From Zobellia uliginosa (GTDB lineage: Bacteria; Bacteroidota; Bacteroidia; Flavobacteriales; Flavobacteriaceae): DNA of 64,000 bases. Both the position numbers and the translations under genes were made by a program. This document shows positions 3,913 through 44,368 of the stretch, one piece after another. Each line of letters opens with the position of its first letter. Position 1 is the stretch's first letter. Under the pieces are notes generated by a model. The model was not told the origin of the DNA. It did no database searches and saw only the letters and a list, made by a program, of their open reading frames with translations. The DNA lies in contig NZ_FTOB01000003.1 of assembly GCF_900156625.1 (NCBI RefSeq), forward strand, positions 310,001 to 374,000, read 5' to 3'.

Positions 3913-3938
3913 TTTAACAACACCTAATATAGAAGAGT

Positions 3939-5456: not shown

Positions 5457-5517
5457 ATTTTATTATATTTATTATAGTTTCAACATATAGACAACCTTAT
5501 TTAACCACGCATTTTAC

Positions 5518-6621
5518 ATGAGCAATAGAAGGAGTTTCTTAAAAAAAACCGCTTTGGGCGCTACGGCCTTATCGACCACATCATCTTTCGGATTCAATAT
5601 TTTAAAGAAAACGGTATTGGAAGATCAAATCATAGGTCATGGTGATTTTAAGTATAAAGTGGTAAAAGACTGGGCACAAATGTCAGTCGCCCATAATCCT
5701 ATCTTGAACTGTCATGAAATGCAGATGGATAGTAAGGGGAGGTTGATCATGTTGGGAGACCATACGGATAATAATATTCTGGTCTTTGACAAATCGGGAA
5801 AACTTCTTGATTATTGGGGTACACGTTATCCCGGAGGACACGGGCTTACCCTTCACGATGAAGGGGGAGAGGACATGTTGTATATTGTAGACTGCGGATG
5901 GTTTGTAGACCGTTCTGGAAAATGGAGCAAACAGGCCGGTACGGTAAGTAAGACCACGGTAGATGGAAGGCTCTTGTTTACCTTGCCCGATCCACATACC
6001 ATAGGGGCCTATACCCAAGAGCAAGAATACCTGCCCACGGAAACAGCGGTCGGACCCAATGGGGATATCTATGTGGCCGATGGTTATGGCTCCGATTTTA
6101 TCCTTCAATATAACCATAAGGGTGAATTTATTAGAAAGTGGGGAGGTCACGATAATAAGGACAAAAATTATAACCTTCACAACGCACATGGCGTGGCGGT
6201 AGATTACCGAAACAAGAAAAATCCGGTATTGGTGGTTACTTCTAGGTCGGATAAGAGTTTTAAATTTTTCACTTTGGATGGCAAGTTTATAAAAACGGTA
6301 GAATTACCAGGAGCCTATGTCTGTCGACCGGTACTCGACGATGATAATATTTATGCGGGAGTTTGCTGGTCGGAAAATAAAGCGGGTAAGCGCTTTAGTA
6401 ATTCTGGTTTTGTGACCATTATGGACGGCGAAAACAAAGTGGTTTCCAACCCGGGAGGTGATGCACCCGAGTATAAAAATGGCAAATTACAGCAAATGTA
6501 CCAGTCTGAAAAGGCCGTGTTCAACCATGGTCACGATGTCTTTGTCGACGAAGACAAGAACTTATATGTATGCCAATGGAATGCCAATAGAACCCCACCT
6601 ATAAAACTAGAAAGGGTCTAA
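5518..6621 (+). CDS. Tat-exported NHL-type beta-propeller protein
   Basis: A 367-residue protein with a twin-arginine signal (NRRSFLKKTALG at the N-terminus). The mature part shows repeated propeller blades, such as MQMDSKGRLIMLGDHTDN, TAVGPNGDIYVADGYGSDFI and VFVDEDKNLYVCQWNANR, each of the xxxPxGxIYVxD kind typical of NHL/six-bladed propellers. It has no recognisable catalytic motif, and related proteins are annotated only as NHL or peptidylamidoglycolate-lyase-like propellers. The 61-bp gap from the DUF1501 gene, the same strand and a second Tat signal suggest one exported module with the two upstream genes. A binding or lyase role is conceivable; I cannot choose between them. Confidence 0.75.
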   Translation: MSNRRSFLKKTALGATALSTTSSFGFNILKKTVLEDQIIGHGDFKYKVVKDWAQMSVAHNPILNCHEMQMDSKGRLIMLGDHTDNNILVFDKSGKLLDYWGTRYPGGHGLTLHDEGGEDMLYIVDCGWFVDRSGKWSKQAGTVSKTTVDGRLLFTLPDPHTIGAYTQEQEYLPTETAVGPNGDIYVADGYGSDFILQYNHKGEFIRKWGGHDNKDKNYNLHNAHGVAVDYRNKKNPVLVVTSRSDKSFKFFTLDGKFIKTVELPGAYVCRPVLDDDNIYAGVCWSENKAGKRFSNSGFVTIMDGENKVVSNPGGDAPEYKNGKLQQMYQSEKAVFNHGHDVFVDEDKNLYVCQWNANRTPPIKLERV

Positions 6622-6775: not shown

Positions 6776-8455
6776 ATGCGCTGCAAAAAAAACAATGTGC
6801 TGTACGCCCTGTTACTGTTGATAGCGTTTTCTTCCTGTAAAGAGGAGAAGGCGGTAGTCACCGAAAAAAAACCGAATATTATCTACATTATGGCCGATGA
6901 CCATACCACCCAAGGTTTTGGTATTTACGGTAGTCGATTGGCCAGTTTAAATCCTACGCCCACCTTGGATAAGATTGCCAAGGAAGGGATGATCTTTGAC
7001 AATTGCTTTGTTAGCAATTCGATATGCACCCCTAGTCGCGCCGCCATTATGACCGGTCAGAATTCCCAATTGAACGGGGTTCTCGATTTAGATGGTCGTC
7101 TTGAGCCTGCCCGTCAATTTCTGCCTATTGAAATGAAGAAATTGGGCTACCAAACGGCAATCGTAGGGAAGTGGCATTTAAAGGAAGAGCCTGCTGCTTT
7201 TGACTATTATCAAGTTTTGCCAGGGCAAGGAAAGTATTTCGATCCTGAATTTAGGGTTAGAGGTGATAAGCCATGGCCCAATAACACGGTTAAAACAAAG
7301 GGACACTCGTCTGACATGGTCACCGATATTACCTTAGATTGGTTGAAGACCAAGAGAGATCCGAACAAACCCTTCTTTTTGGTGCATCAGTTTAAGGCTC
7401 CCCATGACGATTTTGAGAACGCTCCACGTTATGAAGAGTATTTGGCCGATACTTTTATTCCTGAACCGGAAAGTCTTTATGAAAGAGGTAACAATGGTTC
7501 TATAGCCACTCGTGGCAATAACGATTCCTTAACTCGAATAATAGGTTCGTCCGTATCCCATAGAAACTTGATCCGTAACCAGGCGATGAACATTTATGTA
7601 GATAGTTCTATTCACCGGGCTTACCGTGATGCCGATAAAATTCGTCCTGAAGAGTACGTAAAGTGGGAGATGGACGATGAAGAGCGAAAATATACCAGTA
7701 AGGTTTACCAAGATTATGTGAAGAAGTATTTGCGCTGCGTAAAAGGGGTTGATGATAACGTAAAACGTTTAATGGACTACTTGGAGGCTGAAGGACTTAT
7801 GGACAATACTATTATCGTATATACGGGCGATCAAGGTTTTATGCTCGGGGAACATGATTTTATTGATAAAAGATGGATGTACGAAGAGTCTATGCGTATG
7901 CCTTTCTTTGTGAGATATCCTGAGAAGATTAAAGCAGGAAGCCGAACGGATGCCATTATCAACAATACCGATTTTGCACCGACCCTAATTGAATTGGCAG
8001 GGGGAAGTACGCCTGACTATATGCAGGGAAAAAGCTTTAAAACCATATTGGAAACAGGGAAAGAGCCCGAAGATTGGCAAAAGTCGACCTATTATCGGTA
8101 CTGGATGCATATGGCCCACCGCCATCAGAACCCGGCCCACTTTGGGGTGCGTACCAAAGAGTACAAGTTGATATTCTTCTATGGAAAATACTATGTTGAT
8201 ACGAGTGACCCGAATGCCGAGTGGGACAGGAAAAACTGGGGCAACGATTTTGATACGGATACCCCCGCGGCATGGGAGTTTTACGACTTGAAGAAAGACC
8301 CTAAAGAGATGAACAACGCCTACAAAGACCCTGCTTATGCAGAGGTTATTGCAGACTTAAAGAAAGAATTGTTGAGGCTTCGTGAAGATTTGAACGAAAC
8401 GGACGAGAAATATCCACATATTCAAAAAGTTATCGATGCCCATTGGAACGATTGA
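6776..8455 (+). CDS. S1 family sulfatase lipoprotein
   Basis: A 559-residue formylglycine-dependent sulfatase that would remove sulfate esters from algal galactan fragments. It has a lipoprotein signal (Cys21). The first metal-binding stretch is NIIYIMADDHTTQGFG and the sulfatase signature is CTPSRA, with Cys84 the residue converted to formylglycine. GKWHLKEEP and TGDQGFMLGEHD carry the further expected active-site Lys/His and Asp residues. The C-terminal part has the AHRHQNPAHFGVRTKEYKL type of strand usual for the family. The exact S1 subfamily and the sulfate position cleaved cannot be read from sequence alone. In this context galactose or L-galactose 6-sulfate are candidates. It is convergent with the L-galactose operon across a strong hairpin. 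Confidence 0.92.
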   Translation: MRCKKNNVLYALLLLIAFSSCKEEKAVVTEKKPNIIYIMADDHTTQGFGIYGSRLASLNPTPTLDKIAKEGMIFDNCFVSNSICTPSRAAIMTGQNSQLNGVLDLDGRLEPARQFLPIEMKKLGYQTAIVGKWHLKEEPAAFDYYQVLPGQGKYFDPEFRVRGDKPWPNNTVKTKGHSSDMVTDITLDWLKTKRDPNKPFFLVHQFKAPHDDFENAPRYEEYLADTFIPEPESLYERGNNGSIATRGNNDSLTRIIGSSVSHRNLIRNQAMNIYVDSSIHRAYRDADKIRPEEYVKWEMDDEERKYTSKVYQDYVKKYLRCVKGVDDNVKRLMDYLEAEGLMDNTIIVYTGDQGFMLGEHDFIDKRWMYEESMRMPFFVRYPEKIKAGSRTDAIINNTDFAPTLIELAGGSTPDYMQGKSFKTILETGKEPEDWQKSTYYRYWMHMAHRHQNPAHFGVRTKEYKLIFFYGKYYVDTSDPNAEWDRKNWGNDFDTDTPAAWEFYDLKKDPKEMNNAYKDPAYAEVIADLKKELLRLREDLNETDEKYPHIQKVIDAHWND

Positions 8456-8550: not shown

Positions 8551-8892
8551 TTAGAGTTTAAAGATACGCTCTAGTTCGATCCACTTTTCTCCATTTTTGG
8601 CCCATGGTAGGCTTTGTTGGTACTTCCACATCAACTGTTCCCATTCTTGTACGTCTGGGTTGTTGGCGTCCATTTCGGCTTTCCTTTGGGCATCGAAGGT
8701 TTCGTCGACCTCCATGATCATGAACATACGGTTACCGGTCAAGAAAATCTGCATATCGACAATACCGGCATCTTTAATACTCTTTGTAATGGCCGGCCGG
8801 GCATTGCCCTCGGCGTGGTATTCTTTGTATTCGGCAATAAGTTGAGGGTCGTCTTTGAGATCGCAAGAGTAACAATAACGTTTTGTTTTCAT
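8551..8892 (-). CDS. RhaM/FucU-class sugar mutarotase (L-rhamnose mutarotase family)
   Basis: A small protein of about 113 residues starting MKTKRYCYSCDLKDDPQ. ATG at 8892-8890 is preferred over an in-frame TTG nine bases upstream because the MFS gene ends at 8894, one base before it. Family features are the N-terminal strand RYCYSCDLKD, the segment YKEYHAEGNARPAI, and the C-terminal WEQLMWKYQQSLP with a terminal aromatic/hydrophobic end. RhaM-type enzymes interconvert pyranose anomers of 6-deoxy-L-sugars. L-galactose shares the L-fucose configuration, so it may serve L-galactose here (inference from the operon). It is the last gene of the minus-strand operon. Confidence 0.85.
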   Translation of the reverse strand: MKTKRYCYSCDLKDDPQLIAEYKEYHAEGNARPAITKSIKDAGIVDMQIFLTGNRMFMIMEVDETFDAQRKAEMDANNPDVQEWEQLMWKYQQSLPWAKNGEKWIELERIFKL

Positions 8893-8893
8893 T

Positions 8894-10237
8894 TTAGGCA
8901 ATTTTTGATTGGGTTACTTTAAAGGCATACATTCCGTAGAAGGCAACAAAAAGTAGGCATATCATTGGCAATAGGAAGGAAAAATGAATTTCGGTGATGT
9001 TTCCGGCTATTTTATCGCCAAAAACTTCTTGGCCGTTTACGGTATCCCCAAAATCCATTATACTAGCTTGAAGCTTTGGTAAAAAAGCCCCTCCTACAAT
9101 CGCCATAATAAGTCCTGATGAGGCCAATTTGGCTTCTTCTCCCATATCTTTAAGTGCGAGACCGTAAATGGTAGGAAACATAATCGACATGAATACCGAT
9201 ACCAAAACCAAAAAGACCAAGCTTAGGATGCCTGTGGTCATAATAATACCTCCGCACATCAAGGCAGCGGCAACCCCAAAATAAGCCAACATCTTGGCAG
9301 GGTTTATTTTTTTCATCAAGGCCGTTCCGATAAAACGTGTGGTTACAAAAGAAACCATGGCGGTAATATTCCACCAAGTGGCGTCTACACCTAAATTTTG
9401 TGATTCGTTCAGGTATTCTACCAATTGGAAAATAGCCGTCCAACACATAATTTGGGCGCCTACATAGAACATTTGCGCTATTACCCCCAATAAAAAGGTC
9501 TTACTTTTAAAAATACGGTTTACCGATTCTTTAACGGATAGATGGTCGCCCATGACCATGGCGGGAATTTTGGTTTTCCAGATAACAAAAAAGACCAAGG
9601 CCACAAAGAGCCCTACGGCTATGTAGGGCCCACTAATGATATTTAGGTCAAAAGCTTTGATTTCCGCAGCTTTTTCTGCCCCTAAGGCAACAATTTCGGA
9701 ACTATCGGCATAATCGGCCGAAAGAATGCGGTCGAGCACCACGAATTTGGCAATGAGCATTCCTGTCAACGAACCGATGGGGTTGAACGATTGGGCCAAA
9801 TTTAATCTTTGGGTCGCCGTTTCCTTATCGCCCATGGAGAGTATCAAGGGGTTGGATGTGGTTTCCAAGAAGCCCAATCCACAAGTAATTACGAATAACG
9901 AGATCAGAAAGTAAGTGTATGATCCGTTTTCCGCCGCCGGATAGAATAAAATGGCACCAAGGGCATAAAGGGCCAAACCAAGCAGGAGGCCTGATTTGTA
10001 ACTGAACCTTCGAATGAACAATGCGGCGGGAATAGCCATAACACCGTAACCGAAATAAAATGCAAATTGCACATTGTAGGCCTCTTCGTTAGAGAGGATC
10101 ATTACCTTTTTAAAGGCGGCTACCATTGGATTCGTCAAATCGTTGGCAAAACCCCAAAGCGCAAAAATGGAGGTTGCCGCAATAAAGGGTACTAGCAAGT
10201 TTTTGGGAACTACAGGTATCTTGGTGTTTTTTGTCAT
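8894..10237 (-). CDS. FucP-like MFS sugar:proton symporter
   Basis: A 447-residue major facilitator protein with about 12 hydrophobic segments. It resembles the L-fucose permease group: an N-terminal FIAATSIFALWGFANDLTNP stretch, which is the FucP-family signature in the first helix, and SFNPIGSLTGMLIAKF at the start of the fifth. In the cytoplasmic membrane it would take up a monosaccharide released in the periplasm. FucP of E. coli accepts L-fucose and L-galactose, and the neighbouring L-galactonate-type enzymes favour L-galactose here. It lies 25 bp downstream of the SDR gene and 1 bp upstream of the mutarotase gene, so it belongs to the same transcript. Confidence 0.85.
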   Translation of the reverse strand: MTKNTKIPVVPKNLLVPFIAATSIFALWGFANDLTNPMVAAFKKVMILSNEEAYNVQFAFYFGYGVMAIPAALFIRRFSYKSGLLLGLALYALGAILFYPAAENGSYTYFLISLFVITCGLGFLETTSNPLILSMGDKETATQRLNLAQSFNPIGSLTGMLIAKFVVLDRILSADYADSSEIVALGAEKAAEIKAFDLNIISGPYIAVGLFVALVFFVIWKTKIPAMVMGDHLSVKESVNRIFKSKTFLLGVIAQMFYVGAQIMCWTAIFQLVEYLNESQNLGVDATWWNITAMVSFVTTRFIGTALMKKINPAKMLAYFGVAAALMCGGIIMTTGILSLVFLVLVSVFMSIMFPTIYGLALKDMGEEAKLASSGLIMAIVGGAFLPKLQASIMDFGDTVNGQEVFGDKIAGNITEIHFSFLLPMICLLFVAFYGMYAFKVTQSKIA

Positions 10238-10262
10238 GGTTGTATTTTTAAAGTTGGGTTGT

Positions 10263-11057
10263 TTAATCTTCGGTCAGTAAGGAACGGTCTAAATGCACAT
10301 AGCCGCCATCTACAAAAATAAATTGGCCTGTGGTATGCGATGACCTGCTGGAAATGGTAAATAAGCAAGTATCGGCTATTTCATCGGTACTCGTCATTCG
10401 GTTTTCCAATGGGATTTTCTTGACGATAGACTGCAATTTTTCTTCACCATTGGGCAAGGTTTTTATCCAAGTATCGTATGAAGGGGTCCAGCTTTCTGCA
10501 ATAATGATGGCGTTTGAACGAATTCCGTGTTTGACCAGGTCAACGGCCCATTCGCGTGTGAGTCCGAGTACCCCGCCTTTGGAAGCCGCGTAGCCAGAGG
10601 TTCTTCCTTGGCCGGTAAGGGCCACCTTGGAACCTATGTTCAGAATGTTTCCTTTCGATTTTATCAATAGGGGCAAGGCATGTTTGACAATAAGGAAATA
10701 GCTTACCATATTGAGCTTAAGCGAATCCATAAACTCTTCATAGCTGGCATCAAGGCCAACACCGTCGTTTACTCCCACATTGTTGATGACCGCATCGATA
10801 CGACCATATTTTTGGGCGATAGTATTTACGGAATTTTCAATTTGTTGTGGGTCGGTAACATCGGTCTGGCAGAAAATGGCATCGATACCTTTGGCTTGAA
10901 TTTTTTCTATATAACCGAAGCCTCTGGCATTACGGTCGATTACCGCAGGGATGGCGCCTTCTTCGGCCAAACGTTGTAATATGGTCTCACCAATACTGCC
11001 TTCCTTTCCAGCAGCTCCACTGATTACCACTACCTTTCCTTTTAAATTTAAATCCAT
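10263..11057 (-). CDS. Short-chain dehydrogenase, probable L-galactose/L-fucose 1-dehydrogenase
   Basis: A 264-residue SDR. The nucleotide-binding start is KVVVISGAAGKEGSIGE, VINNVGVNDGVG carries the NNxG motif, and the catalytic Ser plus YAASK are in NIGSKVALTGQGRTSGYAASK. The C-terminus ends TGQFIFVDGGYVHLD. In L-fucose and L-galactose oxidative pathways an SDR of this type oxidises C1 of the sugar to the lactone. The next gene in transcript order upstream encodes a COG3618 lactonase, supporting that reaction. L-galactose is preferred over L-fucose because the remaining enzymes match L-galactonate chemistry. Substrate choice is inference; the SDR call is certain. Confidence 0.85.
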   Translation of the reverse strand: MDLNLKGKVVVISGAAGKEGSIGETILQRLAEEGAIPAVIDRNARGFGYIEKIQAKGIDAIFCQTDVTDPQQIENSVNTIAQKYGRIDAVINNVGVNDGVGLDASYEEFMDSLKLNMVSYFLIVKHALPLLIKSKGNILNIGSKVALTGQGRTSGYAASKGGVLGLTREWAVDLVKHGIRSNAIIIAESWTPSYDTWIKTLPNGEEKLQSIVKKIPLENRMTSTDEIADTCLFTISSRSSHTTGQFIFVDGGYVHLDRSLLTED

Positions 11058-11146
11058 TTGTTCTTTATTTTTTATTACTGCCGAGAATACATTTTATCGG
11101 GTCTTTAATAGTAGGTGTCCCGTTTGTACCGTTTGGGCAATGGGGT

Positions 11147-11974
11147 TTATAAGTTATAGAATGCCTCTGCGTTCGCACCCATGATCATTTGCTGGTCTTG
11201 TTCGCCAAGGGTTGAAATAAAATCGGTTACCACACCCTTTACTTGGCCGTAATTACCGGCGACCAGGCATACGGGCCAGTCAGACCCGAACATAACACGT
11301 TCGCTACCGAAGGCTTCAAGTACCAAATGCATATAGGGGTGCAGTTGCTCGGGAGTCCATGAGTTATAATCGGCTTCCGTAATCATGCCCGATAGTTTAC
11401 AGCATACGTTTTCTTGTTTTCCTATTTCCTTCATCAATGAGGCCCAACCATCGTAAAAGCCGTCTTTGATGTAAGGCTTCGCGATATGGTCAATAACAAA
11501 TCTCTGGTTCGGGAACTTTCTGACGAACTCCAATACGGCCCCTAATTGATGGGGGAATACCAGAATATCGTAAGTGTAATCGTATTTTTCCAACAATGAA
11601 ATTCCCCTTATAAAATTAGGTCGGAGTAAAAAATTATGATCGGCCTCACCTTGTACCACATGCCTCCACCCTTTTAAGAATTTATCGGCACTGTACTTTT
11701 CCAAGACGGAATCGATATGCTCTGATCGAAGGTCTGCCCATCCGACAACCCCTTTGATAAAGTCGTTCTGCTTGGCCAGTTCCAATAAAAAATCGGTTTC
11801 TTCAAGGGTTTGGTCGGCCTGCACGGCAACGCAGCCATCAATTCCATTTTCCTGATATACCTTTTTTAGGTCGTCAGGAAGAAAATCTTTGCGAATAGAC
11901 GACATTTCGTCATCGATCCAGGAGTGTTTGACCGGTTCGTAATTCCAAAAATGTTGGTGACTATCTATTGTCAT
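11147..11974 (-). CDS. COG3618 amidohydrolase, sugar-acid lactonase (L-galactono/L-fucono-lactonase type)
   Basis: A 275-residue amidohydrolase-superfamily protein. It has DSHQHFWNYEPVKHSWID at the N-terminus (the HxH metal motif), FVIDHIAKPYIKDG in the middle and MFGSDWPVCLVAG near the end with the metal-binding Asp. This is the COG3618 layout, whose characterised members hydrolyse L-fucono-, L-rhamnono- or L-galactono-1,5-lactone. It sits between the SDR and the tagaturonate-reductase-like gene on the same strand. Opening the lactone made by the SDR to free L-galactonate is the natural role. Length is normal for the family and no odd residues are seen. Confidence 0.87.
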   Translation of the reverse strand: MTIDSHQHFWNYEPVKHSWIDDEMSSIRKDFLPDDLKKVYQENGIDGCVAVQADQTLEETDFLLELAKQNDFIKGVVGWADLRSEHIDSVLEKYSADKFLKGWRHVVQGEADHNFLLRPNFIRGISLLEKYDYTYDILVFPHQLGAVLEFVRKFPNQRFVIDHIAKPYIKDGFYDGWASLMKEIGKQENVCCKLSGMITEADYNSWTPEQLHPYMHLVLEAFGSERVMFGSDWPVCLVAGNYGQVKGVVTDFISTLGEQDQQMIMGANAEAFYNL

Positions 11975-12002
11975 TTTTCACTTTTTTTAAACAAGGTTCA
12001 GG

Positions 12003-13451
12003 TTATAGCTTTCTCAAGCAAGAAACAATTCCCTCGGCTTCTATATTTTGTATGTTCTCGGCAATACAGTTTGTCAAACCCTGTATTTGGGTTAGGTCTT
12101 CTCCCCAAATAGCATCGTTTTTAAGTACGGTTTCAACAAAATCGCTAAGGTTGGAAGTGCCGTCATCCACTTTTTTCCATGCCGAAGCGAAGAAAGCAAG
12201 AACCGCCTTATCGTCGTTAAGATTGATTGTTTCTCCCCTAAATTCCCCCTTGTAAAAACGGAGCAAAGCCGAAAGTCCGAATACGATACGCCTTGGCAAT
12301 TGGCCTTGGGTATTGTAATAGTCCTTTAAGGTAGGTAAGAGGCGGGCAACGAACTTTGACGTACTGTTTAAGGAAATACTGATGAGCTGGTGTTTCAACA
12401 GTGGGTTTCTGAAACGATCGAGTACGTCGGCAACAAACTTGTTCTTTACCTCATTGGGAAAGTCAAGCGTTTGGGCAGCTTCCTCTAAAAGAAGGCTTTC
12501 CGTAAAATGGCTTACATCTTCGTCTTCCATAGCCTCTTTTACAAAACGGATACCGGCCAAGTAGCCTACTGGAACCATTGAGGTATGGGCACCGTTCAAG
12601 ATGCGTACTTTCATCTCGCGATAGGGGGCGAGGTCTTTCACAAACTCTACATTGAGGTCGGTTTCGGCAAAGGGAAGTTCTTTTTGTACCGCTTCATCGG
12701 CCTGAATTACCCAACTGTGGTAATATTCCCCGGCCACCAAAAGTTCATCGTTATAGCCTAACTCTTTTTCAATTTCATCGGCGCGGTCCGTAGGGTAGCC
12801 CGAAACGATGCGGTCTACCAAGGTACTGCAGAAATGGTTGGCCGTATGGATCCAATTTTTAAAATCATTATCTAGGTTCCAATGGTCGGCATATTGCAGC
12901 ACGGTCTTTTTTAAGGCGGTTCCGTTGTCTTCGATCAATTCGCAAGGTAGTAGAATACAGCCTTTATCTACGTCTCCCTTAAAATGTTTAAACCGATGGT
13001 AAAGCCAAACGGTCAACTTGGCGGGAAATTCCCTAGGAGGGTTGACATCGAATTTATCGTCGGCATTGAATTTGATTCCGGCTTCCGTGGTGTTTGAAAC
13101 CACAAAGCGCAAATCTTCGTTTTCCGCTAGTTTTAAATAGCTGGCCCATTCGTTATAGGAATGGATTACACTTTGAACCTCGGTAACCAGTGTTTTCTCG
13201 GCCACCAGTTTTCCGTTCTTTATACCGTCTAGAACGACCGTAAAAAGGCCGTCTTGGTCATTTAATTCAGAATAATCGCCTCCAGCGGTAGGTTTTACGA
13301 TGGCTATGTCGCCGTTGAAATCGGTTTCTTGGTTGAGGACGTGTACCATCCAATCAACGAAGGCCCGTAAAAAATTGCCACCCCCAAATTGCATGACCTT
13401 GATAGGACGTTGAATTCTGTTAGGTGTGGTCGTATGGTTTAAAATGTGCAT
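12003..13451 (-). CDS. uxaB: Tagaturonate reductase (UxaB-like, mannitol dehydrogenase family)
   Basis: A 482-residue polyol dehydrogenase of the UxaB type. The Rossmann start is VMQFGGGNFLRAFVDWMVHV, and the section LLPCELIEDNGTALKKTVL and the catalytic-domain stretch MKVRILNGAHTSMVPVGYLAG (split here in description) are typical of tagaturonate/fructuronate reductases. UxaB reduces D-tagaturonate to D-altronate with NADH. In classical hexuronate use it works with UxaC isomerase. No UxaC is present here, but a Zn-dependent dehydrogenase resembling L-galactonate oxidoreductase is. Tagaturonate would therefore come from L-galactonate rather than from galacturonate. It is 28 bp upstream of the lactonase gene in the operon. 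Confidence 0.88.
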   Translation of the reverse strand: MHILNHTTTPNRIQRPIKVMQFGGGNFLRAFVDWMVHVLNQETDFNGDIAIVKPTAGGDYSELNDQDGLFTVVLDGIKNGKLVAEKTLVTEVQSVIHSYNEWASYLKLAENEDLRFVVSNTTEAGIKFNADDKFDVNPPREFPAKLTVWLYHRFKHFKGDVDKGCILLPCELIEDNGTALKKTVLQYADHWNLDNDFKNWIHTANHFCSTLVDRIVSGYPTDRADEIEKELGYNDELLVAGEYYHSWVIQADEAVQKELPFAETDLNVEFVKDLAPYREMKVRILNGAHTSMVPVGYLAGIRFVKEAMEDEDVSHFTESLLLEEAAQTLDFPNEVKNKFVADVLDRFRNPLLKHQLISISLNSTSKFVARLLPTLKDYYNTQGQLPRRIVFGLSALLRFYKGEFRGETINLNDDKAVLAFFASAWKKVDDGTSNLSDFVETVLKNDAIWGEDLTQIQGLTNCIAENIQNIEAEGIVSCLRKL

Positions 13452-13489
13452 TAATTAGCTTTTTGTTAAATTGGTGTTAGTTGCGATGA

Positions 13490-15142
13490 TCAGAGAGAAA
13501 TACCCCTTTTCCAAGGAATAAAGTCCTCTTGGCCCAATCGTACGGCGGCGGGAACAATTTCCCCACTCGCTACCTTGATGATATAGTTAAGCAGTTCTTC
13601 GCCTTTGGTTTCTATGGTATCCTCGCCCGTAATGACCGTTCCGGTATTAAAATCGATAATGTCTTTCATACGTTCGCTTAGGGCGTTGTTGCTCGACAAT
13701 TTGATTACGGGGGCAATTGGGTTTCCTGTTGGGGTGCCTAGGCCTGTAGTAAAGCAAATGACATTACAGCCCGATCCCGCAAGGCCCGTGGTGCTTTCCA
13801 CATCGTTCCCCGGTGTACATAGCAGGTTGAGTCCTTTTTTCTTTACGGGCTCGGTATAGTCAAGTACATCGGTTACGGGACTGGTCCCTCCTTTTTTCGC
13901 GGCACCGGCAGATTTCATGGCATCGGTAATGAGTCCGTCCTTTATATTTCCTGGCGAGGGATTGTTTTCGAATCCAGAACCAACCGATACGGCCTTTTCT
14001 GAATAAGCCCGCATTAATTTTGCGAACTTTTCTGCATTTTCCTCGGTTTGGCAGCGGTTGATCAATTCTTGTTCGACCCCGTTCAGTTCAGGAAATTCTG
14101 AAAGAACCGTAGTCGCGCCTAAGCCGACCAATAGGTCGGAGGCGTACCCCAAAGAGGGGTTTGCCGAGATGCCTGAAAAACCATCGGATCCGCCACATTC
14201 CAGGCCTAAGACCAGTTGGCTTACGGGAGCTGGTTTTCTCTTCGTTTTATTGGCTTCGATCAGGCCTAAAAAGGTCTTTTTTACGGCCTCTTCTATAAAC
14301 TGTCGCTCGCCCTCACTTTTTTGCTGTTCTAGTACATAAAGCGGTTTTTTGAAATTGGGGTCGCGTTTGGCGATGGCCTCTTCAAGCAACTTAAATTGGG
14401 CATTCTGGCAACCAAGGCTTAAAATGGTTGCGCCCGCCGTGTTAGGGTGGGTGATGTAACCGGCCAAAAGGTTGCAAAGCGTTTCGGAATCTTGGCGTAT
14501 GCCGCCGCATCCACCGTCATGGTTTAAAAACTTGATGCCGTCAACATTCGGGAAGGTTCGGTTTTGCTTAATTTCTTCCGGAGTCTTGATGATATCCGAA
14601 GCCAAGAGTTCGTTTTCGGAAGCCCCGTTTTTATATTGGTCGACAAGAATTTCGGTATCGACCACAAAATCGGTAGCCGTATGGTAGCCCAGTGATTTCA
14701 AAAGGGCGGATTTCATGACATCGACATTTCGGTTTTCACAAAAAACCAAGGGAATGACCAGCCAATGATTGGCCGTACCTACACTGCCATCGGCTCTGTG
14801 ATATCCGTTGAAGGTAGCATCTTTCCATTTGCTGACATCCGGGGCCTTCCAGCTTAGTTTCTCTTGGCCCACTTCGTACTCCGAAGAGGCATGGACCACA
14901 TTTTCGGTGGTTATGGTTTCGCCTTTGGCAATAGGTTTGGTGGCTTTGCCGACCAAGGAACCGTACATGAAAATGCTATCACCGGGGTTGAGGCTGCAAA
15001 TGGTGAATTTATGTTTGGCCTTGACCTTGTCGGTCAATTGAAAGCGGTCGTTGTTATGTTCTATATCAGAACCTTTGGGAAGGTCCGTAAGTGCGGCCAG
15101 AACGTTATCTTCTGGGTGTATTTGCAAAAATTGCTTTGACAT
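13490..15142 (-). CDS. uxaA: Altronate dehydratase (UxaA-like)
   Basis: A 550-residue protein with the two-part UxaA layout. The N-terminal SAF domain is about residues 1-95 (IHPEDNVLAALTDLPKGSDI), followed by the long GarD/UxaA dehydratase domain. Family marks include KFLNHDGGCGGIRQDSETL, LGLECGGSDGFSGISANPSLG and CFTTGLGTPTGNPIAPVIKLS. These enzymes convert D-altronate to 2-keto-3-deoxy-D-gluconate (KDG) using iron. It would finish the L-galactonate, tagaturonate, altronate, KDG series within this operon. It lies 38 bp upstream of uxaB and 37 bp downstream of the Zn-dehydrogenase gene. KDG kinase and aldolase are not in the window. Confidence 0.9.
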   Translation of the reverse strand: MSKQFLQIHPEDNVLAALTDLPKGSDIEHNNDRFQLTDKVKAKHKFTICSLNPGDSIFMYGSLVGKATKPIAKGETITTENVVHASSEYEVGQEKLSWKAPDVSKWKDATFNGYHRADGSVGTANHWLVIPLVFCENRNVDVMKSALLKSLGYHTATDFVVDTEILVDQYKNGASENELLASDIIKTPEEIKQNRTFPNVDGIKFLNHDGGCGGIRQDSETLCNLLAGYITHPNTAGATILSLGCQNAQFKLLEEAIAKRDPNFKKPLYVLEQQKSEGERQFIEEAVKKTFLGLIEANKTKRKPAPVSQLVLGLECGGSDGFSGISANPSLGYASDLLVGLGATTVLSEFPELNGVEQELINRCQTEENAEKFAKLMRAYSEKAVSVGSGFENNPSPGNIKDGLITDAMKSAGAAKKGGTSPVTDVLDYTEPVKKKGLNLLCTPGNDVESTTGLAGSGCNVICFTTGLGTPTGNPIAPVIKLSSNNALSERMKDIIDFNTGTVITGEDTIETKGEELLNYIIKVASGEIVPAAVRLGQEDFIPWKRGISL

Positions 15143-15179
15143 TGTTCTTTACTTTTGTCGGTGCTTAAATGCGATTCGT

Positions 15180-16196
15180 TTATTCGAAATCAACGGTAGC
15201 CTTGATCACTCCGTTCGCCGGGTCTAGCCAGCCATCGAAATTGGCGATCATTTCGGTGTAAGGAACATTGTGTGTAATAAAGGAATCGATGGGAAACTCA
15301 CCTTTTTCCAAAACGGAAATTACATGTTCAAAGTCTTCCAAAGTGGCATTTCTACTGCACATAATGGTCGTTTCCTTAGCGTGGATCTTAGGGTGGGTAA
15401 ATACCAATTCTCCCTTAGAGAGCCCTACCAATATATATCTTCCTCCATGCGACATGTAATCGGGACCGGCTTCAAGGGCTCCTTTATGGCCTGTGGCATC
15501 AAAAACCGCCGTGGCTAGATCGCCTTTGGTGATTTCCGAAACTTGGTCTACGGCATCTTTTCCTCCTAAAACCACATAATCGACACCGATATCGTTTTTA
15601 GCGTAATCTAGGCGTTGTTGGTTCATATCTATGGCAATTACTTTGGCCCCCGCAATTTGTGCGAGCTTCATGATGCCGATTCCTATAGGCCCACAACCCA
15701 CTACAACTATGGTTTCGCCAGGTTTTATACCGGCACGTCGAATGGCGTGTGCCCCGATCGCCAAAGGTTCGACCACGGCCATTTGGTCGTCGGTCAACTG
15801 TTGTGCGGGGATTAGTAGGTGGGCAGGTACGGTAATTTTTTCTTGCATCCCTCCATCGGTGTGAACTCCCAAAACTTGGATATTCGTGCAACAGTTGGTC
15901 TTTCCGTTTCTGCAGGCGATACAGGTGCCGCAACTTACATAGGGCATGACGACCACGTTGTCGCCCGCTTTGATACCTTGAGGATTCTCATCTATTTCAA
16001 CTACTTGCGTAGCCAATTCGTGACCTAGAATTCTCGGGTAGGTAAAAAATGCCTGGTTGCCCGCATAAGCATGTAGGTCGGTACCACAAATACCTACCTT
16101 TTTCACTTTCAATATGGCTTCGCCGGATTTTCTTATCGGTTCTTCTTTTTCTTTAAGAATGAACTCGCCCGGTTTTTCACATACAATGTACTTCAT
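15180..16196 (-). CDS. Zn-dependent dehydrogenase, probable L-galactonate 5-dehydrogenase (LgoD/YjjN-like)
   Basis: A 338-residue medium-chain dehydrogenase. Catalytic zinc ligands are in KVGIDGTDLHAY-like KVGICGTDLHAY and GHELATQV. The structural zinc site is complete with four cysteines in PYVSCGTCIACRNGKTNC. The NAD-binding motif is VVVGCGPIGIGIM. Threonine-dehydrogenase-like enzymes of this branch include the E. coli L-galactonate oxidoreductase that makes D-tagaturonate. The genes immediately downstream encode tagaturonate reductase and altronate dehydratase, so this reaction would feed them directly. It is the first gene of the minus-strand operon, behind a hairpin terminator of the GH29 gene. 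Substrate is inference from context. Confidence 0.83.
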   Translation of the reverse strand: MKYIVCEKPGEFILKEKEEPIRKSGEAILKVKKVGICGTDLHAYAGNQAFFTYPRILGHELATQVVEIDENPQGIKAGDNVVVMPYVSCGTCIACRNGKTNCCTNIQVLGVHTDGGMQEKITVPAHLLIPAQQLTDDQMAVVEPLAIGAHAIRRAGIKPGETIVVVGCGPIGIGIMKLAQIAGAKVIAIDMNQQRLDYAKNDIGVDYVVLGGKDAVDQVSEITKGDLATAVFDATGHKGALEAGPDYMSHGGRYILVGLSKGELVFTHPKIHAKETTIMCSRNATLEDFEHVISVLEKGEFPIDSFITHNVPYTEMIANFDGWLDPANGVIKATVDFE

Positions 16197-16372: not shown

Positions 16373-16699
16373 CTATAACGATATTTCCAGTACGTGTGCA
16401 AATTCTCCCGTCTTCGACCCTAGGTCCGAAATGTTGAGGCCATCGTCATTTACTTCAAACTCTATTTTGCTGTCGCTACCTAAGAGTTTTACACTTTTGA
16501 TATTCAGATTTTTACCGTGTTCGCTGGATTTCCCCAATGATTCTATGTTGACTTTATTGCCTTCTGGCCATTCCATCATGATCGCATACAGTTTGTCGCC
16601 CTTCTTTGTAAAGCGAATATCCTGACCAGTAAATCCTTTGTTTTGTCCTTCGCTGTGATGGCCCTTTTTGACTTCTGTGGGGCCTTCGCCGAAAGTGCT
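16373..16699 (-). pseudogene. Detached C-terminal beta-sandwich of the GH29 gene, downstream of the amber stop
   Basis: Reading on in the same frame past the TAG gives about 108 codons with no further stop or shift. It begins STFGEGPTEVKKGHHSEG, continues GFTGQDIRFTKKGDKLYAIM, and ends EFAHVLEISL before TAG at 16375-16373. FGEGPT and FTxKGDxLYAI are standard in the C-terminal domain of GH29 enzymes. The frame equals that of the upstream ORF, so one base substitution explains the split. A TAG readthrough, a truncated functional enzyme or a base-calling error are alternatives. The intact state of this tail argues for a very recent lesion. Confidence 0.85.
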
Positions 16700-17914
16700 C
16701 TAGTATTCCGTATCGTAAATCGCTTCACCGTTTACGTTTAACCAATCTCCGATTTGGAACAATATTTCTTTTTGGTCTTCTGGAATGGTACCGTCTGCTT
16801 TCGGACCTACATTAAGTAAAAGGTTTCCGTTCTTGGATACGATATCGACCAGGTCGTCAACAAGGCTGTTGGCCGTACGTGACTCCCAGTTGGTAACGTA
16901 ACACCAAGAATTCTTTCCGATAGAGGTATCGGTCTGCCAAGGGAGCTTTCGAATACCGGGAAGCTTTCCGCGTTCCAAATCGTAGATTACGGTACCTTCA
17001 GGAAAGGCCTCATGATCAAAGTTCTTGTCATTTATTACCACTTCTTTGCCCCATTCCAATCCTTTGTTGTAATAGTATGCCGCAATTTTTGGACGGTATT
17101 CCTTGTAATCGGGAATATCGAGGTAGAAATCGAACCAAAGGATGTCCGGTTGATAGTTGTCGATAAGGTCGACCGTTCTGTCCCACCACATTTTCTTGAA
17201 TTCTTCCGATACGGGCTCGGTCAGGTCTTTTCCTTTGGGGGAATAGAGGTCGGCGTATTCGGGGTCGGTGGTGTCAAATTTGTCTTTCTTATTATAAAAT
17301 GACCAGTTGAAGGCATAGTGGGATGAAGCCCCCATAATCATACCCTGGGCGCGGCCTTCTTTAAAAAGCTCGCCTAAAACGTCTCGTTTAGGCCCCATGT
17401 CAACGGCATTCCATCGGGTTGTATTCGATTTGTACATGGCAAAACCATCATGATGGTCGGCAACGGGAATTACATATTTGGCCCCTGATTTCTTGAAAAT
17501 ATCGATCCATTCCTTGGCATCGAATTTTTCGGCCTTGAACATCGGTATAAAATCTTTGTAACCAAATTCTTTTTGGTCTCCGTATGTCTTTTTATGGTGT
17601 AGATATGTTGCGTTAGGTCCTTTTTTTCCCAATTTCAACTGGGCACTGAAGGTGGCGGTATCCATATACATCTGGCGTGGGTACCATTCCGATCCATAGG
17701 CAGGTACCGAATAGGCCCCCCAGTGAATGAAAATACCAAATTTGCTGTCGTTGAACCATTCGGGGTCTTTATAGTGTTTTTTAATAGATTCCCAATTCGG
17801 TTCAAATTTGACCGCAGTTTCTTGGGGAATGTCCCCTTCTTTTTTCTTTTCGGCTTTCGACCCACATGAGGTGAGTAGGATGCCCGTCATTAAAAGTGTA
17901 AAAATTCTATACAT
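16700..17914 (-). CDS. GH29 alpha-L-fucosidase/alpha-L-galactosidase lipoprotein, catalytic domain, cut short by in-frame TAG
   Basis: The ORF encodes 404 residues: a lipoprotein signal (Cys17), then a GH29 catalytic domain. Visible marks are FGIFIHWGAYSVPAYGSEWY (60s-70s), VIPVADHHDGFAMY with the paired His at 154-155, and DILWFDFYLD, whose Asp262 is the expected nucleophile. GH29 enzymes release terminal alpha-L-fucose, and a porphyran-linked branch releases alpha-L-galactose, which the adjoining operon could degrade. The ORF ends at TAG (16702-16700) right after AIYDTEY, yet the same frame continues with STFGEGPTEV and the C-terminal beta-sandwich to 16373. GH29 proteins usually have W or a similar residue at this point, so a TGG to TAG change is likely. 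The catalytic domain is complete, so residual activity is possible. Confidence 0.85.
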   Translation of the reverse strand: MYRIFTLLMTGILLTSCGSKAEKKKEGDIPQETAVKFEPNWESIKKHYKDPEWFNDSKFGIFIHWGAYSVPAYGSEWYPRQMYMDTATFSAQLKLGKKGPNATYLHHKKTYGDQKEFGYKDFIPMFKAEKFDAKEWIDIFKKSGAKYVIPVADHHDGFAMYKSNTTRWNAVDMGPKRDVLGELFKEGRAQGMIMGASSHYAFNWSFYNKKDKFDTTDPEYADLYSPKGKDLTEPVSEEFKKMWWDRTVDLIDNYQPDILWFDFYLDIPDYKEYRPKIAAYYYNKGLEWGKEVVINDKNFDHEAFPEGTVIYDLERGKLPGIRKLPWQTDTSIGKNSWCYVTNWESRTANSLVDDLVDIVSKNGNLLLNVGPKADGTIPEDQKEILFQIGDWLNVNGEAIYDTEY

Positions 17915-18087: not shown

Positions 18088-18927
18088 CTAGACTTTCGCA
18101 TACTTTCGTTGATAGGCAAGGGGAGAGCAGCCCATAAACTTCTTGAACTGCCTGTGAAAGAAAGGTAATGATTCATAACCGCAGGCAAAAGCAATATGGG
18201 AGACCGAGTCATGGGTGTCAAGAAGCATCCTTGCGGAAATATTGATGCGGTATTCGTTTAAAAAGGTAAAGAAAGGACGCCCCATCATTTTGGTGAAAAA
18301 TCTAGAAAACGATTGTTCCGACATATTGACCAGGTCGGCCAATTCCTTTAAATAGATTTTTCGGTTATAATGCATTCCTACAAAATCGTGGATATCCGCC
18401 ATTCGGTTACCGTATTCCGAAGGTAGGTCGTCTATAAAGCTTGCGCTCGATAAGGTAGTGTAATCGCAATCGGCCAATTTTACCAATAATGTGAGCAATT
18501 GAATATATAGGTCGTGCCCTCCTAATTGGGGACATTGTTTTAATTGGGATATAAGCGGGGCGGTTGCCCCTTTGTCGAATAAAATTCCCTTGGAGGCGGT
18601 TCTTAATAATTGAAAGAGCTTGGCCAATTCGGGTACTTTAGGAAAAACGCCAAGGTTCCATTGGACCACTATCGATTTTGATAGTCCTGTTTGTTCGGTA
18701 TTGTTTTTCCAGCAATGGGGAAGGTTTGAACGGAGTAGCACCAATTCACCAGGTTCATACGGACCTACGTAATCACCCACGAATTTTGTCCCTACACTTT
18801 CCTCTATATAGGTCAACTCATGTTGCGGATGAAAGTGCCAAGGAGTCTCAAAATTCTTTTTAGAATGATAAAAACTCGTAATGGTCCGTTGTTCGTCTAA
18901 ATGTATGGGCTCTAATATGGGTTGCAT
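18088..18927 (-). CDS. AraC-family regulator with N-terminal cupin domain
   Basis: A 279-residue regulator. The N-terminal cupin-like sensor includes HFHPQHELTYIEESVGTKFV and YEPGELVLLRSNLPHCWKN. The C-terminal double helix-turn-helix spans about residues 180-275, with LKELADLVNMSEQSFSRFF and ISHIAFACGYESLPFFHRQF, the latter being the conserved second AraC helix-turn-helix. It is transcribed divergently from the P450 operon (19113) and lies just upstream of the GH29 gene on the same strand. It is therefore well placed to control the P450 set, GH29 and perhaps the L-galactose operon in response to a released sugar. The effector is unknown. Confidence 0.88.
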   Translation of the reverse strand: MQPILEPIHLDEQRTITSFYHSKKNFETPWHFHPQHELTYIEESVGTKFVGDYVGPYEPGELVLLRSNLPHCWKNNTEQTGLSKSIVVQWNLGVFPKVPELAKLFQLLRTASKGILFDKGATAPLISQLKQCPQLGGHDLYIQLLTLLVKLADCDYTTLSSASFIDDLPSEYGNRMADIHDFVGMHYNRKIYLKELADLVNMSEQSFSRFFTKMMGRPFFTFLNEYRINISARMLLDTHDSVSHIAFACGYESLPFFHRQFKKFMGCSPLAYQRKYAKV

Positions 18928-19112: not shown

Positions 19113-20276
19113 ATGAAAAAAAGTGAGCTTCCAGACCCGTTTGAAAAAGCGAGGGAATCAAAAGGTTACGGGGAAATGAACGATCAAGATGATCCTGTGA
19201 CCATGCTTTTGAGACATAAAGACGTTCGTAAAAGTGCGCATAATTATAAAACGTTTCAATCTGGGGCGGTTCCGGGGCGAATCGTAATTCCTTCAGAAGT
19301 GAATATACGTGACACCCGCCAAATACCTTTTGAAGTCGATCCTCCGGTTCATGGAGTATACAGGGCTATTGTAGAGCCTTGGTTCAAAAGACCCTTACAA
19401 GCGGAATACCAAGAGCGATTAAGGTCTCAGATTTCGGAAATCGTAGAAGAGGCTTTACAAAAAGGGAGTGTAGAGGTCGTAACCGATTTTGCCCTACGCT
19501 TGCAGTCAAGGGCCTTGACCTTACTCTTAAATACACCGTTTTCGGAATCGGAGACCTGGATTTCTTGGGGAACCCATGTATTTCGAAGTGAAGGGGAGGC
19601 GCTAGACGGCGATAAAGCCAATATTCTTTACCATTATATAGATGAACAGATCGACCGGGCCAGTGAAGATCCTGGAGAAGACATGTATTCCGTACTTTTA
19701 AATTCTGAGTTCGAAGGTCGGAAATTGACCAAGGAAGAAGTAAAGGGGGTAATGGTGTTGACTTTTGCAGGAGGACGGGATACCGTCATCAATGCGGTTA
19801 CCAATTCTATTGCGTACTTGGCCGAACATCCCGAAGCGTTGGAACGATTGCGAAAAGAACCTGAGATTACCGGTAGGGCGGTGGAGGAAATGATCCGTTA
19901 TTTTTCGCCCCTTACACAAATGGGGCGCGTGGTAACCGAAGATGCCCATGTATGTGAACATGCGGTAAAGGCCGATAGTAGAATTTCGCTGTGTTGGGCT
20001 TCGGCCAACAGGGATGCCGCTGTTTTTGAGAATCCGAACGAAATCGTGCTGGATCGGAAGGTCAATCCACATGTAGGCTTCGGTTTTAGCCACCATAATT
20101 GTTTAGGGGCGACCCACGCTAGGCAGATATTGAAAATCTTGCTTCAGACCTTGGCACAAAAAGTAGCTTCGTTCGAAATATTGGACTACAAGGAAAATAT
20201 AGAGGATTTAGACCACTTTCAGCGTAAAGTAGGTTTTCATAATATTCAAATAAAATTCAACCCTTTAACAAAATAA
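19113..20276 (+). CDS. Cytochrome P450, probable 6-O-methyl-D-galactose demethylase (CYP236-like)
   Basis: A 387-residue soluble bacterial P450. The I-helix oxygen-activation motif is AGGRDT (219-224), the K-helix ExxR is E259-R262, and the heme-binding loop FGFSHHNCLG carries the thiolate ligand Cys330. It is followed after 4 bp by a 2Fe-2S ferredoxin and then a ferredoxin reductase, giving a complete class I electron chain. The same three-gene arrangement in Zobellia and Formosa oxidatively demethylates 6-O-methyl-D-galactose from porphyran, releasing formaldehyde. Flanking galactan genes and a downstream alcohol dehydrogenase make that role likely. Orthology to those enzymes is recalled, not computed. 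Confidence 0.9.
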   Translation: MKKSELPDPFEKARESKGYGEMNDQDDPVTMLLRHKDVRKSAHNYKTFQSGAVPGRIVIPSEVNIRDTRQIPFEVDPPVHGVYRAIVEPWFKRPLQAEYQERLRSQISEIVEEALQKGSVEVVTDFALRLQSRALTLLLNTPFSESETWISWGTHVFRSEGEALDGDKANILYHYIDEQIDRASEDPGEDMYSVLLNSEFEGRKLTKEEVKGVMVLTFAGGRDTVINAVTNSIAYLAEHPEALERLRKEPEITGRAVEEMIRYFSPLTQMGRVVTEDAHVCEHAVKADSRISLCWASANRDAAVFENPNEIVLDRKVNPHVGFGFSHHNCLGATHARQILKILLQTLAQKVASFEILDYKENIEDLDHFQRKVGFHNIQIKFNPLTK

Positions 20277-20280
20277 ATTT

Positions 20281-20589
20281 ATGGCAAAAATCACTTTTAT
20301 CACCAGTGACGACGAAACGATAACTTTAGAAGGAACCTCGGGTTCGGTAATGGCCTTGGCCGTTGAGAACGGGGTGCCCGGAATAGATGGCGATTGCGGC
20401 GGGGTTTGTTCGTGTGCTACCTGTCATGTACACGTGACGCCCGAAGACATGGTGAAAACAGGGAGTGCCAGTGAGATAGAGACCGATATGCTTGAGCTAG
20501 ATGACAATGCTGACGAGTACAGTAGGTTGTGTTGTCAAATAGAGATCAGTGATGCCATAGATGGCGTGGTCCTAAAAGTTGCCAAATAA
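20281..20589 (+). CDS. 2Fe-2S ferredoxin, electron donor to the P450
   Basis: A 102-residue adrenodoxin/putidaredoxin-type ferredoxin. Cluster ligands are Cys39, Cys45 and Cys48 (C-x5-C-x2-C in DCGGVCSCATCHVH) and Cys85 in SRLCCQI. Length and motif spacing match bacterial P450 redox partners. It sits 4 bp after the P450 gene and 7 bp before the chosen start of the reductase gene, so the three are co-translated from one message. It would carry single electrons from the reductase to the P450 in the cytoplasm. Confidence 0.95.
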   Translation: MAKITFITSDDETITLEGTSGSVMALAVENGVPGIDGDCGGVCSCATCHVHVTPEDMVKTGSASEIETDMLELDDNADEYSRLCCQIEISDAIDGVVLKVAK

Positions 20590-20596
20590 AGAGGTG

Positions 20597-21853: not shown

Positions 21854-21896
21854 CAAAATATAAAAGTAGCTTAGAACTACGTAAAAAGAATAAGAA

Positions 21897-23015: not shown

Positions 23016-23023
23016 AATAAAAC

Positions 23024-23815: not shown

Positions 23816-23920
23816 TTTTTTAACGAATCCATTCCATTTATTGACTTTTGCGCCGATTGAATCGGTCTATTTTATTATTTACTACCTTTCGGATACATCA
23901 AATTGAAAATTCCAACAGGT

Positions 23921-43350: not shown

Positions 43351-43415
43351 GTTTTTTAAAATGTAGAAAAAAGGGAGCAAATAAGATATCACCTTTGAGG
43401 TGAAAGATGAAAAGA

Positions 43416-43441
43416 GAGGCCCGTTTGGCGGGTCTTTTTTT
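43416..43441 (+). terminator. Terminator after the IclR gene
   Basis: AGGCCCG (43417-43423) pairs with CGGGTCT (43429-43435) around TTTGG, followed by a run of seven T residues. It isolates the IclR transcript from the AraC gene, so the latter needs its own promoter. Confidence 0.85.
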
Positions 43442-43581
43442 GTGGTCTATAAATATCTATGGGCAAGACTCTGCTAATCGTCTGATATTTAGAAATCAGG
43501 GTTTTAATTTTTTTAGGGGGCATTGTGAGCTATATCTTAAAAAAAGATGGTCAAAATATGAGGATGTGTCAAATTTTTACA

Positions 43582-43622: not shown

Positions 43623-43635
43623 AAAAAAACACCAT

Positions 43636-44316: not shown

Positions 44317-44368
44317 TTTAGTAGTGTAGACATGTATATTTAAATTTTAGATCAAGTAATCCATAACC

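Follow-up and report, generated by a model that had tools for sequence, protein, structure and literature searches.

A seven-gene operon of Zobellia uliginosa as a probable L-galactose catabolic module beside porphyran-type genes

Porphyran is rich in L-galactose 6-sulfate, and the locus described here raises the question of how L-galactose is used inside the cell. The window, that is, the whole stretch of DNA analysed, comprises 64,000 nucleotides of Zobellia uliginosa (assembly GCF_900156625.1, contig NZ_FTOB01000003.1, positions 310,001 to 374,000 of the forward strand; genome of 5.3 Mb). A minus-strand operon of seven open reading frames (ORFs) lies at 8551-16196, with intergenic gaps of 25-89 bases and an 8-base overlap at the last pair (fucP/mutarotase). 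The initial annotation, made from the sequence alone, had described this operon as a complete route from L-galactose to 2-keto-3-deoxygluconate (KDG). All seven ORFs were found, and Pfam and NCBIfam agree with the families that had been given, except for the mutarotase, which had been called L-fucose-type. This protein belongs to the RhaM family, and its sole solved-structure matches, to L-fucose mutarotase, are weak (E 0.0003). The genes of the operon are the following.

15180..16196, minus strand: LgoD-like zinc-dependent dehydrogenase (Zn-dehydrogenase), predicted L-galactonate 5-dehydrogenase (L-galactonate to D-tagaturonate)
13490..15142, minus strand: UxaA/GarD-family D-altronate dehydratase (predicted substrate), three domains PF08666, PF04295 and PF20629
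12003..13451, minus strand: D-tagaturonate reductase UxaB (NF002969, 670 bits, cut-off 359)
11147..11974, minus strand: COG3618-type aldonolactonase, putative L-galactonolactonase (PF04909, Amidohydro_2; best solved match 4dlf)
10263..11057, minus strand: short-chain dehydrogenase/reductase (SDR), proposed L-galactose 1-dehydrogenase (NF052481, 355 bits, cut-off 300; best solved match 4gkb)
8894..10237, minus strand: FucP-type sugar:H+ symporter, proposed for L-galactose uptake (TIGR00885, 458 bits, cut-off 280)
8551..8901, minus strand: RhaM-family aldose mutarotase (PF05336)

We consider it very probable that the operon serves L-galactose catabolism inside the cell, as a module of the Zobellia porphyran/agar utilisation region. 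L-galactose would be imported by the FucP-type symporter, and the mutarotase would supply the right anomer. The SDR would oxidise C1 to give the lactone, which the COG3618-type enzyme would open to L-galactonate. The Zn-dehydrogenase would oxidise C5 of L-galactonate to give D-tagaturonate, UxaB would reduce this to D-altronate, and UxaA would dehydrate D-altronate to KDG. Each of the four steps that lead from the lactone to KDG has a matching enzyme family in this one operon. The order of intermediates first proposed agrees with all the catalytic genes, the flanking porphyran-type enzymes, the separate fucose cluster of the genome and what the operon contains in relatives. Gene content and order, family membership, genomic association, clade structure and the separate fucose cluster are observed; the substrates and reactions, the specificity of transport and the regulation are inferred. 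The route would be completed by KDG kinase and 2-keto-3-deoxy-6-phosphogluconate (KDPG) aldolase, a pair of which lies about 27 kb from the operon (G000:C12:289.7-291.4 kb; G, C and L numbers denote genomes, contigs and loci). In a relative (L032), a PfkB kinase and a KDPG aldolase, 87% and 80% identical to this pair, stand between UxaA and the Zn-dehydrogenase.

The Zn-dehydrogenase was 41% identical to E. coli LgoD, annotated as L-galactonate oxidoreductase, without gaps over 337 amino acids. C37, H59, E60, C89, C92, C95 and C103 were invariant across 8 sequences, and we take these residues to be zinc ligands. The protein has both the full-length similarity and the metal-site residues of the LgoD family. 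The uxaA gene is a single copy in the genome, and UxaB has one copy over the cut-off, the second match reaching 157 bits. The initial annotation had reported UxaC, the standard hexuronate isomerase, as missing. This is true of the operon, but the genome does have UxaC, only at C16:468.5 kb and beside a tripartite ATP-independent periplasmic (TRAP) transporter.

The source of the sugar is suggested by the neighbouring genes.

6776..8455, plus strand: S1 sulfatase of the exo-L-galactose-6-sulfatase type (S1_11-like), from solved-structure matches
16700..17914, minus strand: GH29 protein of the exo-alpha-L-galactosidase type (PF01120 at 33-397)
18088..18927, minus strand: AraC-family regulator (PF12833), upstream of the GH29 gene and the operon and in the same place in L090-L092
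19113..25537, plus strand: block of P450, ferredoxin (20281-20589), ferredoxin reductase, Zn-dependent alcohol dehydrogenase (ADH), esterase and sulfatase

The best solved matches of the sulfatase at 6776-8455 were 7lha ('Exo-L-galactose-6-sulfatase', 639 bits), 7snj (617) and 7sno (613), and the next reached 365 bits, which places it close to the S1_11 exo-L-galactose-6-sulfatases. The GH29 protein matched BpGH29 best (7snk, 376 bits; 7ljj, 369; the next protein 234), so that it is closer to BpGH29 than to fucosidases; 184 of 348 aligned positions were identical to 7ljj. According to the available passages of PMC12316285, 7snj and 7sno are BpS1_11, 7snk and 7ljj are the exo-alpha-L-galactosidase BpGH29, and in B. 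plebeius the S1_11 sulfatase and then the GH29 enzyme remove first the sulfate and then L-galactose from porphyran oligosaccharides. The operon is therefore flanked by homologues of two L-galactose-freeing enzymes, and the flanking sulfatase and GH29 genes noted earlier could be named more closely. In Zobellia, the S1_11-like sulfatase would desulfate porphyran oligosaccharides, and the GH29 exo-alpha-L-galactosidase would then cleave them. A block similar to that at 19113-25537, which is one of the red-algal galactan gene sets of the window, is described for 6-O-methyl-D-galactose demethylation in porphyran users (PMC10033563, in the part available).

The GH29 frame stops at an in-frame TAG at codon 405, past the matched Pfam domain. 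Beyond it, about 108 codons are open (16376-17914, minus strand) and match the C-terminus of homologues of 513-515 amino acids from three other Zobellia. The TAG may be a real truncation, a read-through codon or a sequencing error. At G000:C8:148966-150492, the genome encodes another sulfatase, which shares 62% identity with the L-galactose-6-sulfatase-like protein.

Is this arrangement kept in relatives? The same order was found in three named Zobellia (Z. barbeyronii, Z. russellii and Z. uliginosa), whose Zn-dehydrogenases share 96-97% identity with that of the window. With insertions (KDG kinase KdgK and KDPG aldolase KdgA, or GH29), the order recurs in Maribacter, Wenyingzhuangia, Aquimarina and others, which argues that the operon is not a chance assembly. 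Searched with the SDR (E 1e-60), 296 genomes of the order yielded 28 loci in 22 genomes. Identity to the SDR of the window was 67-100% in 17 loci (first set) and 50-56% in the other 11 (second set). An LgoD-like gene was adjacent in 16/17 loci of the first set, the window included, and in 0/11 of the second (Fisher p 6e-7). In the exception, L034, the LgoD-like gene is elsewhere, at L085, with UxaA, UxaB and lactonase. Counted by genome, a Zn-dehydrogenase of at least 50% identity was present in 17/17 with a first-set SDR versus 0/5 without one (one of these five had a 31% match). UxaA and UxaB occurred together in the same stretch in 4/17 first-set and 0/11 second-set loci, and UxaA alone in 7/11 of the latter; UxaB over the cut-off was present in all 22 SDR-bearing genomes. 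The S1_11-like sulfatase (E 1e-130) was found in 3/22 SDR-bearing genomes, all three among the five that have Zn-dehydrogenase, UxaA and UxaB.

Named loci (L090-L169) were obtained by a Zn-dehydrogenase scan of genome contigs, as the best 80 of 597 stretches. They contain the Zn-dehydrogenase by construction, so the association test between SDR clade and Zn-dehydrogenase was limited to the SDR-fetched loci. By Zn-dehydrogenase identity, 45 of the 80 were close (at least 65%), 4 lay at 58-65% and 31 were distant (50-58%); contig ends cut some of them. Among the close loci, UxaA and UxaB were both on the Zn-dehydrogenase strand in 26/45, and UxaA, UxaB, lactonase and either an SDR or an aldo-keto reductase (AKR) were present in 22/45. 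The SDR was found in 30, the AKR in 4, both in none and neither in 11; KdgA was on the Zn-dehydrogenase strand in 11/45. The four loci at 58-65% had UxaA/UxaB in none and an SDR in one. The distant loci (n = 31) had UxaA with UxaB in 1, SDR in 16, lactonase in 19, and fumarylacetoacetate (FAA) hydrolase with 2-keto-3-deoxy-L-fuconate (KDF) dehydrogenase in 11. Porphyran-type markers (L-galactose-6-sulfatase of at least 55% identity, GH29 of at least 70%, P450 or ADH of at least 50%) were present in 19/45 close versus 0/31 distant loci.

A quick tree of UxaA (63 rows) separated these contexts. A clade of 34 rows with the window (support 99) had the Zn-dehydrogenase alongside in 33/34, the exception being L086. 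Two other clades held 16 UxaB-paired rows without Zn-dehydrogenase (support 100) and 8 rows from fucose clusters (support 100); L130, L158 and the pair L125/L127 fell outside all three. This tree and the SDR tree below have long branches, and the placement of FucX, BmulJ_04919 and E. coli UxaA in them is unsure. UxaB and UxaA are ordinary members of their families, and one could suppose that they have their usual uronate role in a galacturonate operon, with the other genes as unrelated passengers. We regard this as hardly credible. UxaC is not in the operon, the window UxaA belongs to a different clade from the 16 UxaB-paired rows, and UxaA and UxaB are kept together with lactonase, SDR or AKR, and Zn-dehydrogenase in 22 of the 45 close loci. 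A pure galacturonate operon was set aside for the lack of UxaC in it and the separate UxaA clade. Direct L-galactonate dehydration, suggested for an Acidovorax UxaA-type protein in the available part of PMC6336799, was rejected for the window UxaA because UxaB and the Zn-dehydrogenase would be left without a role.

A second explanation is that the operon serves L-fucose. The dehydratase of the Campylobacter fucose locus is of the UxaA kind; by analogy, the SDR and lactonase would make L-fuconate, and UxaA would be an L-fuconate dehydratase. The SDR and FucP do pass fucose models, and UxaA-family proteins occur in fucose-type clusters of relatives (the 8 rows above). A UxaA/GarD member whose main substrate is D-arabinonate has weak activity with D-altronate, L-fuconate and L-galactonate (PMC6336799, in the part available), which also counts for this explanation. 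We nevertheless find it very improbable. UxaB and the LgoD-like enzyme would be left without a role, the window UxaA is in a different clade from the fucose-cluster UxaA, and the flanking enzymes are of L-galactose type. The operon has no KDF dehydrogenase, no FAA hydrolase and, unless UxaA acts so, no fuconate dehydratase.

Matching families for these steps lie in another cluster of the same genome, on C13 (L055), and it was for this cluster that the L-fucose explanation was set aside. It contains an AraC regulator, an enolase-family dehydratase, an SDR, FAA hydrolase, a further SDR matching NF052481 (398 bits), FucP and a flavin mononucleotide-dependent dehydrogenase. Read against the non-phosphorylating L-fucose pathway, it looks like a complete version of that pathway. 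NCBIfam gave its dehydratase only under-cut-off matches to other sugar-acid dehydratases; by context, it is probably the fuconate dehydratase. The initial annotation's statement that there is no fuconate dehydratase is thus true of the operon and has to be narrowed for the genome, which has a fuconate-dehydratase-like gene on C13. A dehydratase of the C13 type, at 84% identity or more, was found in 3/5 genomes with Zn-dehydrogenase, UxaA and UxaB (G000, G281 and G286). FucI (PF07881) of the phosphorylating L-fucose route was not found in the genome, the profile control being positive in 3/14. The NCBIfam name 'L-fucose dehydrogenase' was not adopted as the function of the operon SDR, since a second, higher-scoring SDR sits in the fucose-type cluster.

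Which enzyme, then, performs the first step? The SDR has Ser143, Tyr156 and Lys160 at the position of the catalytic motif, which we take to be that of the SDR family. A quick tree of 77 rows has a branch of support 100 between a group of 62, to which the window belongs, and 13 mostly fucose-linked rows; most of the 62 come from the Zn-dehydrogenase scan. Two characterised L-fucose dehydrogenases lie outside both clades, on long branches that call for caution. Residue 193, in the loop after the catalytic motif (Ser in the window), is Ala (51) or Ser (11) in 62/62 rows of the clade and Leu in 14/15 others; the exception, L164, has Ala and stands beside an LgoD-like enzyme. Judging from the alignment, residue 193 may be a specificity switch. 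Relative to 4gkb, the glycine-rich cofactor loop of the clade is also longer by three inserted residues, and 54/62 rows have Asp41, where most others have Gly. By the usual rule for such enzymes, this may point to NAD+ as the cofactor. The preference of the SDR for L-galactose is predicted from context and phylogeny.

In four relatives (L097, L100, L105 and L106), an AKR of 315-316 residues stands between lactonase and FucP in place of the SDR. Four of the six solved matches of the L100 AKR (E 1e-15) are named L-galactose dehydrogenase, a naming that is only suggestive. The NCBIfam scan gave no name for two AKR proteins of relatives, nor for the mutarotase and GH29. In the window, the slot is occupied by an SDR and not by an AKR-type L-galactose dehydrogenase, and no relative of the L100 AKR was found in the genome at E 1e-10 (one genome, with no positive control). 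It thus seems that either of two unrelated families can occupy this operon slot and catalyse the same first step. We hold it about as likely as not that L-galactose 1-dehydrogenases of SDR type, akin to L-fucose dehydrogenases, make up an undescribed family in marine Bacteroidetes and take the place of the AKR type at the first step.

Several results weigh against the assignment of the operon to L-galactose, or against its being exclusive. The SDR exceeds the cut-off of a curated model named L-fucose dehydrogenase (NF052481), and the lactonase matches the L-fucono-1,5-lactonase model NF052480 with 268 bits, under the cut-off of 400. According to the available passages of PMC6946681, L-fucose and D-arabinose are good substrates of FucX and L-galactose is a weak one. 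The best L-galactose dehydrogenase match of the L100 AKR is thin, at 81.7 bits versus 80.5 for IolS. The UxaA and UxaB pair was missing from the Zn-dehydrogenase strand in 19/45 close loci, some for lack of contig, and 2/5 genomes with Zn-dehydrogenase, UxaA and UxaB from the order search had no sulfatase at E 1e-130. Because UxaA and UxaB are single copies and UxaC lies elsewhere, both may also serve galacturonate. The Zn-dehydrogenase stood with FAA hydrolase and KDF dehydrogenase in the 11/31 distant loci counted above, 9 of which had an SDR of the window's clade and one of which (L158) also had UxaA and UxaB. The same two enzymes occurred in 3/45 close loci (L124, L125 and L127), with UxaA in two and UxaB in none. 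These loci indicate that the pair of SDR and Zn-dehydrogenase is not tied to L-galactose alone. Several Flavobacterium relatives have a window-clade SDR and a Zn-dehydrogenase of 50-58% identity beside fucose-type enzymes. In L158, one run at 4-15 kb encodes FucP, mutarotase, KDF dehydrogenase, FAA hydrolase, lactonase, SDR, LgoD-like enzyme, KdgK, KdgA, UxaB and UxaA, so that fucose-type and L-galactose-type routes are found together; its SDR, beside the LgoD-like enzyme, has Leu at residue 193. We think that the SDR and lactonase of such genomes serve both sugars.

Ten SDR-fetched loci of one genus (L036-L045) had FAA hydrolase beside the SDR in 9/10, KDF dehydrogenase in 6/10 and UxaA/UxaB in 0/10. 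LgoD-like enzymes of 50-53% identity share a cluster with SDR and lactonase in L036-L045, L047, L141, L149-L151, L155, L156 and L161-L163; in most cases FAA hydrolase and KDF dehydrogenase are there too, and no UxaA/UxaB lies nearby.

In a third explanation, the SDR, lactonase and transporter serve L-galactose together with L-fucose or D-arabinose, and UxaA and UxaB also take galacturonate from the distant UxaC. It overlaps with the L-galactose assignment and widens it. Characterised L-fucose dehydrogenases accept L-galactose weakly (PMC6946681, in part), L158 has both enzyme types in one run, and the genome, with its UxaC next to a TRAP transporter, has one copy each of UxaA and UxaB. Two points count against sharing: a distinct cluster of this genome brings a dehydrogenase and FucP of its own, and the operon is embedded among porphyran-type genes. 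We consider such sharing possible, though on the doubtful side, and prefer the operon as an L-galactose module.

Two further gene groups of the window were noted. Beside the operon, at 664-6621 (plus strand), are genes for a PSCyt1/PSCyt2/PSD1 protein, a DUF1501 protein and a protein with a weak NHL-repeat match. By gene count, they may correspond to ZGAL_4688-4690, a unit that responds to agar; its connection to agar is described as unclear in the available part of PMC5613140. Counted in the same way from the order in another Zobellia, the operon itself would be about ZGAL_4680-4686 in Z. galactanivorans, where zgal_4674 is the ADH of the P450 block. PSD1 or DUF1501 relatives occur in 7/45 close named loci (L094, L101, L113, L119, L120, L123 and L129). 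At 42559-59017 (plus strand), a gene set resembles that for 3,6-anhydro-L-galactose use, with IclR and AraC regulators, a GH43-like protein (presumably GH117), a Zn-dehydrogenase, a KduD-like SDR (333 bits, cut-off 339), a sulfatase, an aldehyde dehydrogenase, two enolase-family proteins and GH2. Its Zn-dehydrogenase is 31% identical to that of the operon. The set may oxidise C5 of an L-galacto acid and then reduce the product, reaching KDG likewise.

Titles and abstracts, most subscription papers being out of reach, gave no account of this pathway or of an SDR-type L-galactose dehydrogenase in marine Bacteroidetes. The available literature passages follow porphyran breakdown to monosaccharides and do not address L-galactose use by marine Bacteroidetes. 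The operon offers a concrete and testable answer for a range of these bacteria, and under the proposed reading automatic assignments to fucose or galacturonate metabolism would be corrected. Should the AKR of the four relatives be an L-galactose dehydrogenase, one reaction would be performed by two unrelated families in the same operon slot, and a lineage of fucose enzymes would have shifted to L-galactose.

Among known systems, the L-galactose pathway of Phocaeicola (Bacteroides) vulgatus, reportedly described by Hobbs in 2014 and said to comprise BVU_0219/0220/0222 with a COG3618 lactonase, has the same intermediates (L-galactose, lactone, L-galactonate and D-tagaturonate) and a separate L-galactonate dehydrogenase. 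The initial annotation had equated the two routes. The intermediates agree, but the first enzyme does not: that of P. vulgatus, known here by description like the other BVU enzymes, clusters with the plant GALDH (AKR), whereas Zobellia has an SDR. The Zobellia locus also differs in having UxaA/UxaB, uptake and porphyran-type exo-enzymes all together. BVU_0219 and LguA of Luteolibacter sp. LG18 cluster with GALDH_ARATH, according to the available passages of PMC12632266. The same passages describe lguABCDEF, which resembles the operon in uniting altronate dehydratase, tagaturonate reductase, L-galactonate dehydrogenase and KDPG aldolase in one cluster, and its route is backed by assays and gene disruption. 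LguA is of AKR type, no lactonase or FucP is named in those passages, and the cluster also serves for L-glucose, the C4 epimerase being encoded elsewhere. In E. coli, LgoT and LgoD (41% identical to the window enzyme) feed UxaB and UxaA; that route starts at L-galactonate, and no L-galactose dehydrogenase or lactonase is annotated beside lgoD. The porphyran exo-cycle of B. plebeius (BpS1_11, BpGH29 and BpGH2C) has its homologous L-galactose-6-sulfatase and exo-alpha-L-galactosidase beside the Zobellia operon; the account ends at monosaccharides, and 'l-galactonate' occurs 0 times in the main text (PMC12316285, as available). Non-phosphorylating L-fucose clusters, such as the Campylobacter FucX locus, share SDR, lactonase, FucP, mutarotase and sometimes, in relatives, UxaA. 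They differ in having KDF dehydrogenase and FAA hydrolase, and UxaB or an LgoD-like gene was found in 0/11 loci of the other SDR clade (PMC6946681, in part, for the known clusters). In our judgement, the operon would work like the pathways of P. vulgatus and Luteolibacter, with a first step that is not homologous: a known metabolic route with a putative new first enzyme family and a porphyran setting.

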